Shown: positions 15,523 to 55,337 of the stretch, piece after piece
Numbering within the stretch: position 1 is the stretch's first letter
How the letters are laid out: every line of letters starts with the position of its first letter
From: Haloarcula salinisoli
GTDB taxonomy: Archaea; Halobacteriota; Halobacteria; Halobacteriales; Haloarculaceae
Assembly: GCF_019599405.1 (NCBI RefSeq)
Contig: NZ_RKLQ01000001.1
Location: 1,488,001 to 1,552,000, forward strand
Direction of reading: 5' to 3'
Length of the DNA stretch: 64,000 bases
Notes under the pieces: generated by a model
What the model was told of the DNA's origin: nothing
Databases searched by the model: none
What the model saw: the letters and a program-made list of their open reading frames with translations, nothing else
Program-made: the position numbers and the translations under genes

Positions 15523-15725
15523 GCTCGTGGTCCCTACTCCTCGACCAGCTCCTCGGCCAGCAGCGGCACGAACCTCCGCAATCCACCTTTTTCTGCCTCG
15601 GGTGTGCTCACTACGCTCGCACACCACTCGTTGAAAAACGTGGGCGAAAAAGGCCACTCGCGGCGCAACGCGCCGCTCGTGGTCCCTACTCCTCGACCAG
15701 CTCCTCGGCCAGCAACGGCACGAAC
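15523..15725. repeat. Gene-tail direct repeat flanking a palindromic core (element 1)
   Basis: A 51-base segment at 15675-15725, covering the last 13 codons, the stop and 11 following bases of the minus-strand gene, recurs at 15523-15573 with one mismatch. Between the copies lie 101 bases that contain a core at 15583-15654. Read on the plus strand this core is CCACCTTTTTC, six bases, GGGTG, a hairpin (GGTGTGC with GCACACC), CCACTC, three bases, GAAAAACGTGG, then GCGAAAAAGGC. CCACCTTTTTC can pair with GAAAAACGTGG (10 of 11) or with GAAAAAGG. A separate small hairpin GGCGC/GCGCC lies at 15662-15674. The same core occurs at 54743-54825. Confidence 0.85.
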
Positions 15726-16930
15726 GTGCCGATGTCGGTGACCATTCCCACCGCCTGCGCGGAGCCGCGGTCGACCAGCTGCGTGACGGTGGCGGGGCTG
15801 ATATCCACACAGACGACCGGCGTCGTGGAGGGGAGGCAGTTGCCGACGGCCACCGAGTGCAGCAGTGTCGAGAGCATCAACACCATGTCGGCCTCGTGGG
15901 CCTGCGCTCGGATGGCGTTCTGTGCTTCGACGGCGTCGGTGATGGTGTCGGGCAGCGGGCCGTCGTCGCGAATCGAGCCCGCCAGCACGAACGGGCGGTC
16001 GTTGGCGACACACTCGTACATCACGCCGGACTCGATAGTCCCCGACTCGACGGCCGCTTCGATGCCGCCCTCGCGGATGACCTCGCTGATGGCGTAGATG
16101 TGGTGTTTGTGGCCGTGACGAGCGTGGTCCAGTGTCTCGGTGTCGACGCCCAGCGACGTGCCATAGAGGTCCCGCTCGATGTCGTGAACCGCGAAACCGT
16201 TGCCAGCTGAGAGCATATCGATGTGGCCCTCGCGAACGAGGCGAGCGAGGTCCTCGCGGGCGCCGGAGTGGATGAGCGCCGGCCCACAGACCGCGAGTAC
16301 GTCCCCGCCCGACTCGCTGGTCTCTCGCATCGCGTCGGCGATCTGGCGGATAGTCGACTCCGAGGGCCGTTCGGCGGAGACGCCGCCCTGCATGAATCCA
16401 AAGGTCCCACCCGAGTCCCGCGGTCGTTCCGGCGGTTCGACCCTGATACCGGTGTCGCCCGTGACGACGCGGTCGCCCGCCTCGATGGCGTTCAGGACCT
16501 TGGTGTAGGCGCGGGGGCCGTCCGAACCGTCACTCGATGGCTCGGGTTCGACGACGATGGCACAGTCCATCTCCATGTTCTCGACCGGGAGCCACTCGTC
16601 CTCGTAGCGGACGAACGTCGGGTGGTTCGTCGTCGAGTAGAAGCCGTCTGGGACCACCCGGTCGGCCGGCGCCCGCTCCAGTGTCGCGTCGGTCGGGTCG
16701 GCCGGGTTCGCGCCGTGCTGGTGGAGTTCGTGGACGATGGACTGGAGCGTCTCTGTGTCGTCGGCCTCGACCAGTAACCTGGCGTAGGATTCCTCTTCCT
16801 TCCGCCGGCCGATGTCGAACGCCTCCACGGTGAACGAACCGCCCATATCCATCACGATGCTGAAGGCTGTCCCCATCGTCCCGGAGTCGATGATGTGACC
16901 CGCCAGTTCCACCTCGCGAGAAACCGTCAT
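15686..16930 (-). CDS. Archaeal ornithine cyclodeaminase-type protein (TIGR00300 / LOR-SDH region family)
   Basis: The protein has 414 residues. The N-terminal 110 form the LOR/SDH-type domain (ELAGHIIDSGTMGTAFSIVMDMGG, with HPTFVRY), and the rest is a nucleotide-binding domain (GFMQGGVSAERP, AVCGPALIHSGAR, LSAGNGFAVHDIERDLYGTSLGVD, DMVLMLSTLLHSVAVGNCLPS). Archaeal members and the C-terminal half of cyanobacterial ArgZ/AgrE convert ornithine to proline and ammonia. The last 13 codons and stop are duplicated 152 bases downstream around a palindromic core, so the gene's 3' end is intact but sits beside a second copy of itself. Confidence 0.85.
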   Translation of the reverse strand: MTVSREVELAGHIIDSGTMGTAFSIVMDMGGSFTVEAFDIGRRKEEESYARLLVEADDTETLQSIVHELHQHGANPADPTDATLERAPADRVVPDGFYSTTNHPTFVRYEDEWLPVENMEMDCAIVVEPEPSSDGSDGPRAYTKVLNAIEAGDRVVTGDTGIRVEPPERPRDSGGTFGFMQGGVSAERPSESTIRQIADAMRETSESGGDVLAVCGPALIHSGAREDLARLVREGHIDMLSAGNGFAVHDIERDLYGTSLGVDTETLDHARHGHKHHIYAISEVIREGGIEAAVESGTIESGVMYECVANDRPFVLAGSIRDDGPLPDTITDAVEAQNAIRAQAHEADMVLMLSTLLHSVAVGNCLPSTTPVVCVDISPATVTQLVDRGSAQAVGMVTDIGTFVPLLAEELVEE

Positions 16931-54672: not shown

Positions 54673-54701
54673 CGGAAGCTACCGAACCGAAGAGTGGTCG
54701 C

Positions 54702-54908
54702 TACTGGTAGTCCACTTCGCCGTCGCCCTCGCCAACCCGATGCCACCTTTTTCGTCGTCGGGTGACCTCGCCAGCCTTCGGCTCGCTGCGGCCACCACTC
54801 CTCGAAAAACGTGGGCGAAAAAGGCGCGAATCGCCGCTGCCGATTCGCGTGAAACCGCGCCTGCGGCGCGGTACGTTACTGGTAGTCCACTTCGCCGTCG
54901 CCCTCGCC
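54702..54908. repeat. Gene-tail direct repeat flanking a palindromic core (element 2)
   Basis: The last 32 bases of nuoI at 54877-54908 recur at 54702-54733. Between lie 143 bases. The core 54743-54825 on the plus strand reads CCACCTTTTTC, six bases, GGGTG, a variable hairpin (AGCC/GGCT), CCACTC, three bases, GAAAAACGTGG and GCGAAAAAGGC, the same order and spacing as at 15583-15654. Two further hairpins follow on the nuoI side: GCGAATCG with CGATTCGC, and ACCGCGCC with GGCGCGGT. The duplicated stop codon is TAG in the distal copy and TAA in the gene. Confidence 0.85.
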
Positions 54909-55337
54909 GATCCAGGCGCCCCGGTCGGGCTCCCGTGATTCGAGCGGGTCGATGTCCTTGTACCACGGGACGTTTTTGAGTTGCTCCTTGTCGTAGGCGA
55001 ACTCGTCTTTCGTGTCCGCGGTGAACTCGAAGTTCTGGGTCAGGAGGATAGCGTCGACGGGACAGACCTCCTCACACAGTCGGCAGTAGATACACTGGCC
55101 GATGTGGAGGTTGTACTGCTCGCCGTTGCGCTGGTCGTCCTGGACAATCTGGATGGTGTTGTTCGGGCAGACGTTCTCGCACTGCCGACACCAGATACAC
55201 CGCTCCTGGCTGAACTTGTGGACGCCGCGGAAGCGGGGGCTCACCTCGGGGGCGACGTCAGGGTACTCCACCGTGAACGTCTCCCCGTCGAGGGCGTGTT
55301 TCATCGTCGTCGCCATGGATTTCATGATGCCAATCAT
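54876..55337 (-). CDS. nuoI: Complex I subunit I (two 4Fe-4S clusters)
   Basis: The protein has 153 residues with two ferredoxin motifs, CIWCRQCENVCP and CIYCRLCEEVCP, for the N6a and N6b clusters that pass electrons toward NuoB. Archaeal forms receive electrons from ferredoxin or another donor because NuoEFG are missing. The final ten codons (GEGDGEVDYQ) are repeated downstream. It is the last gene of the nuoA-B-CD-H-I block. Confidence 0.94.
   Translation of the reverse strand: MIGIMKSMATTMKHALDGETFTVEYPDVAPEVSPRFRGVHKFSQERCIWCRQCENVCPNNTIQIVQDDQRNGEQYNLHIGQCIYCRLCEEVCPVDAILLTQNFEFTADTKDEFAYDKEQLKNVPWYKDIDPLESREPDRGAWIGEGDGEVDYQ

Follow-up and report, generated by a model that had tools for sequence, protein, structure and literature searches.

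A dispersed hairpin repeat accompanied by duplicated gene edges in the Haloarculaceae

The ornithine cyclodeaminase locus

In the stretch of Haloarcula salinisoli DNA considered here (64,000 nucleotides, hereafter the window) the end of an ornithine cyclodeaminase gene, argZ, occurs twice, on either side of a short structured segment. The locus raises two questions: what kind of sequence lies between the copies, and how the gene came to have its end in duplicate while remaining whole.

A first-pass annotation, made from the letters of the window, had described a 51-base direct repeat with one mismatch. This is present as two 51-bp copies identical at 50/51 positions with a spacing of 152, and the repeat grows to 57 nt at 95% identity once the flanks are tolerated. 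We designate the copy which belongs to the gene T2 and the distal copy T1 (Table 1). T2 includes the stop codon (15686–15688) and the 11 bases beyond it, as had been stated; its coding part, given there as the last 13 codons, is one codon shorter, consisting of 12 full codons and one base. The single difference between T1 and T2 is synonymous (CTG/TTG, Leu), so that the distal tail does keep the same amino acids, and the completeness of the gene is borne out by a match of its 414-aa product to TIGR00300 (E 1.6e-161).

The structured core that had been noticed within the 101 intervening bases is likewise real: hairpins are present, and the predicted RNA fold of the repeat region is more stable than those of shuffled sequences (z −3.4). 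Judged from its sequence, the conserved GAAAAACGTGGGCGAAAAAGG segment would resemble a terminator when read on the strand of the gene. When the window was compared with the curated Rfam models the sole match was a tRNA, and the element matched none of them.

Table 1. Features of the two element-bearing loci of the window
Feature	Position in window	Strand
Host gene, nickel-pincer-dependent ornithine cyclodeaminase (TIGR00300, ArgZ C-terminal type), complete	15686..16930	-
T2, gene-proximal tail copy (12 codons, stop and 11 nt)	15675..15725	-
T1, distal tail copy, 50/51 identical, adjoining the native downstream flank	15523..15573	-
Dispersed hairpin element between the tail copies, 101 bp	15574..15674	+
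Precise left end CCACCTTTTTC; pairs with GAAAAACGTGG, alternative pairing with GAAAAAGG possible	15583..15593	+
Hairpin 1 (GTGTGC..GCACAC); stem sequence differs among copies, pairing retained	15602..15624	+
Conserved GAAAAACGTGGGCGAAAAAGG; reads on the strand of the gene as a double T-tract preceded by a hairpin	15633..15653	+
Hairpin 2; right arm GCTCGTGG falls within T2	15654..15682	+
Second host gene, nuoI-type 4Fe-4S subunit	54876..55337	-
T1 of nuoI, 34/35 identical	54699..54733	-
Second element copy, 140 bp, hairpins 1–3; missing in sister species G017	54734..54873	+
T2 of nuoI	54874..54908	-

Distribution and structure of the element

The 101-bp segment is one member of a non-coding family with dispersed copies; a search of the genome from which the window comes yielded numerous partial matches. 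When at most 3 mismatches are allowed, the 19-base motif GAAAAACGTGGGCGAAAAA is found at 22 sites in this genome, the reversed control giving 0. The element is present in 31/32 genomes of the genus, and an exact 18-base motif in 48/243 genomes across the order, nearly all of them within the family of the window. It is essentially confined to one haloarchaeal family, the Haloarculaceae going by record names, which include Haloarcula, Halorientalis, Halosimplex, Halomicrobium, Salinibaculum and others. The first-pass annotation had proposed that the segment be sought in other genomes; it is present there, often with a tail duplication, rather than being peculiar to this one.

Copies measure approximately 100–160 bp, some being longer through nested hairpins. 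They start with CCACCTTTTTC and finish at about CGGTATGCT, and these ends are not inverted repeats of one another. Nearly every copy has its left end paired with GAAAAACGTGG, and the inner stem covaries, 98–114 of 110–121 sequences being paired per position with GC, CG, UA and AU all occurring. In a subfamily (L051, L052, L237 and L246) CGACCTTTTTC paired with GAAAAACGTCG, or similar, replaces CCACC/GTGG, presumably as a compensatory change in the outer stem. Some copies (L038, L040, L042, L391, L336 and L348) carry long mosaics of extra perfect hairpins nested within hairpin 1, in which the modules GGTTGCGGGCC, GCTCACGGGCG and CAGCGGGACC..GGTCCCGCTCGACTC recur in a manner similar to BIME mosaics. 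A further motif, CCTGCCCTTCCCCGTC, recurs some 10–20 bases past the right end of copies which have no tail duplication; it lies to the right of many copies, for example L039, L040, L067, L221, L232 and L233.

A search for longer versions with genes between the two ends gave only copies with nested hairpin modules, and no transposase, recombinase or longer autonomous version of the element was found. No carrier was encountered among phage records, among viral contigs (searched by exact pattern only) or among plasmids, where there was one Haloferax match.

Duplication of gene edges

Of the 137 copies whose left end can be recognised, 67 are spanned by a direct repeat (repeat score ≥18.5) as against 1/160 shifted control positions, and because of this difference the gene-edge repeats around the elements are beyond chance; a locus shared by several species was counted once for each, so that the figures are not tallies of independent events. 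Genes were assigned at the repeats with an acidity filter and a codon model, as antisense ORFs confuse plain ORF calling. In the simple copies the duplications range from 19 to 212 bp (median 44.5) at a median identity of 94%, and 7/48 are perfect. Their side is fixed: in 63/67 the gene is on the minus strand and to the element's right; the duplicated edge is nearly always the 3' end, and the stop is situated 22–63 nt from the element core in most of these copies. The genes hit are many and have housekeeping functions unrelated to one another (citrate synthase, purM, hisH, ileS, pheT, argF, sufS, ilvD and nuoI), and no common core was seen within T. The original description of a palindromic element which duplicates the end of its host gene therefore extends to a repeated element with tail duplications at many loci.

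That description had also pointed to integrases which target the 3' ends of genes. Against such a kinship stand the many unrelated target genes, duplications of 19 to ~200 bp, the few copies at gene 5' ends, and an insert which carries neither integrase nor cargo. Compared with the integrase islands found at gene 3' ends, the insert is only some 100–300 bp, contains no genes and offers no shared att core.

At L032, L122 and L352, that is, at least three loci, it is the 5' end of the gene which is duplicated, in the opposite transcriptional sense; L352 has four identical 170-base units. These cases bear on the idea of target-primed reverse transcription of a read-through mRNA, in which the left end of the element would represent the 3' end of an RNA attached where the gene tail had been nicked. 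The precise left end, the fixed orientation against gene 3' ends and the terminator-like T-tracts would all suit such a process. We have downgraded mRNA-based insertion because of the 5'-end cases, no reverse transcriptase was found linked to the element, and we regard this explanation as hardly credible.

Tail-element units also form tandem arrays of 2–4, with four identical units in G011. In G005 an identical array spacing is observed at two places, and at L353 of the same genome a VapB/VapC-like gene pair (judged by eye) lies between one element and a three-unit array. Tandem units are what would result if a gene tail and its native terminator had simply been duplicated in tandem, or copied by slippage, with no mobile element involved, and the terminator-like nature of the element as well as G031 and G020, which have decayed old tail copies and a truncated element, are in keeping with it. 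In its simple form this reading is refuted, the inserted sequence being common to unrelated genes: a single dispersed sequence family is found at many of them. Moreover, at most loci no further element lies beyond the outermost T1, and the nuoI site of G017 (see below) is entirely without one. We consider such an origin quite improbable. The tail duplication around the element is as real as first described, but it is not a single event; the data are those of a family with tandem arrays and homogenised copies.

Empty and filled sites

Relatives without the insert, a comparison which had been recommended at the outset, do exist. The second copy in the window adjoins nuoI, whose orthologue L226 scores just below the TIGR01971 NuoI cut-off. 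In G017 nuoI and the same left-hand gene are joined through a single tail with no element, whereas in the window's genome (G000) 140 bp of element separate two copies of that tail. This pair directly demonstrates an insertion of ~140 bp with a long target duplication of 35 bp. The inner junction differs in G022 and G013, which have a longer T than the 35 bp of G000, and because of this the nuoI end must have been struck at least twice. A promoter-side site is cleanly empty in G017, G019, G013 and G011, while G018 has a second independent insertion 8 bases from the others. At citrate synthase the inner junctions are again independent, T being 25 bp in G000 and ~87 in G016. In the argZ gene tree 13/29 genes bear the element, requiring at least 7 changes, to which the tree gives no direction; the filled sites adjoin several different downstream neighbours. 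Further out at argZ (L090, L108 and L105) are one more tail copy, now decayed, and a truncated element, which seem to document earlier rounds.

One might regard the copies instead as a purely vertical set of functional terminators, ancient, lost through recombination between T1 and T2, with tails made alike through gene conversion, and possessing no present mobility. The same sites and junctions do recur over species and genera, the stems covary, and left ends are found 0–8 nt past stops, after tRNAs and upstream of promoters. Such inheritance is at odds with the nuoI insertion of G000, missing in G017 and with a junction unlike that of G022 and G013, and with the variety of neighbours at filled argZ sites. 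On this evidence we hold a vertical set to be somewhat doubtful, though it merits serious attention.

Copies without duplication

Although the element duplicates the tail at many loci, approximately half of the copies have no duplication, and the left end of these mostly abuts a functional edge. In about 30 it lies 0–8 bases past a stop codon; in roughly a dozen it precedes a start codon by some 40 bases, just beyond the promoter; and in a few it comes directly behind a tRNA gene. Short intergenic spacers explain some of these positions. The precise edge placement is surprising and is not predicted by the model which we favour below.

Behaviour of the tail copies

Many species share one and the same junction of T1 with the element, yet T1 continues to match the T2 of its own genome. 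At citrate synthase T1 has 4.3 mismatches per 80 to its own T2 and 17.8 to the T2 of other species; at argZ the corresponding values per 40 are 3.25 and 11. This within-species likeness persists despite the shared old junction. Mismatches between T1 and T2 are distributed 27/26/123 over codon positions 1/2/3, and changes assigned to T1 by means of an outgroup 5/15/35, a count for which the outgroup choice was crude and to which one long locus contributes much. Pure decay of a target duplication is rejected on the ground that the T1 changes are third-position biased.

These results also concern the possibility that we are dealing with an ordinary MITE, that is, with separate recent insertions made by a host-supplied IS transposase, after which the target duplication decays. 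The element is dispersed, short and non-coding, has empty and filled sites, and shows perfect T copies at several loci, all of which a MITE would do. When its ends are compared with each other no terminal inverted repeats are seen, and in place of a short fixed duplication there are variable ones of 19 to ~200 bp. A junction common to many species alongside a T1 that still matches its own T2, and the third-position bias in a supposedly dead T1, are likewise difficult to reconcile with it, and we judge a MITE unlikely.

Identity between the tails commonly stops at the stop codon; in G016 87/87 bases match and the sequence past the stop is unrelated. G003 has a T1 which, together with the flank outside it, is much like the native tail found in its empty sister G023, whereas the coding tail at the end of T2 is a different one; in G010 T1 codes for ...KLVETAE and T2 for ...KLVAEEE. 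Such patterns are the expected trace of interspecies recombination through the tails; intragenomic gene conversion explains part of them equally well.

Proposed mode of spread

On balance we favour the view that this is a non-autonomous, non-coding mobile hairpin repeat of the Haloarculaceae, which probably combines insertion at gene edges, long variable duplications and recombination between the tails. The element would settle at a gene edge, its arrival duplicating the adjoining edge (19 to ~200 bp) in about half of the copies. The gene would stay whole, T2 remaining part of it and T1 coming to lie beyond the element. As a guess, the first insertion might begin with a nick in each strand, the two far apart, and be completed by fill-in. 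T1 and T2 could subsequently serve as homology arms, recombination between them expanding, removing and homogenising units, and a donor block of T1, element and T2 could recombine into any species possessing the gene, whatever lies downstream. Tail-mediated transfer across species may account for the data, as may an ancient insertion that was lost precisely and repeatedly, together with gene conversion within genomes; the observations accommodate both. We put forward only tentatively, as a possibility, that the element makes its own homology arms: the duplicated, conserved gene edge would surround it with sequence common to any related species, and homologous recombination could then carry it between species whose neighbouring genes differ, rebuilding the gene each time.

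Relationship to known elements and significance

The Yersinia palindromic sequences (YPAL/RU-2) are ~168 bp, not A+T-rich, with internal rather than terminal inverted repeats; they are intergenic, with target duplications of 3–26 bp, empty and filled sites, and targets at or next to dyad symmetry (PMC2229807). Compared by description rather than by sequence, the haloarchaeal element resembles them in its internal hairpins, its variable-length target duplication and its empty and filled sites. It differs in being archaeal, in its longer duplications (19 to ~200 bp, median 44.5 in simple copies), in that these are gene edges on one fixed side, and in its tandem tail-element arrays. REP/BIME elements are described as extragenic hairpins with mosaics of nested hairpins and a hypothesised role in termination, REPs being 20–40 bp (PMC3733652). 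The present element is similar, consisting of extragenic hairpins with nested mosaics and having a possible termination role. To our knowledge, duplication of gene ends is not part of the REP/BIME description. By analogy, YPAL/RU-2 and REP/BIME would be the closest relatives in kind.

In Haloquadratum the SMRs, MITEs and PATEs are short transposase-free mobile repeats (PMC3119063). SMRs, of which SMR-A is ~110 bp and of unknown mobilisation, have terminal inverted repeats and no target duplications, while PATEs have IS605-like near-terminal palindromes and again no target duplications (PMC3119063). With its long duplications the present element does not fall within the definition of either SMRs or PATEs. 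In the open-licence literature we found no earlier description of it, which is weak evidence of novelty.

Small repeats of unknown mobility are common in prokaryotes, and haloarchaea exchange DNA readily. Here the gene-rebuilding duplications, the pairs of empty and filled sites, the tandem arrays and the identity of tails within a species provide direct handles on how such a repeat spreads. For annotation there is a warning, in that fragments of gene tails beside hairpins can be footprints of an element rather than pseudogenes or assembly errors. If the tails are true homology arms, an element without genes could exploit host recombination for its horizontal spread among haloarchaea.
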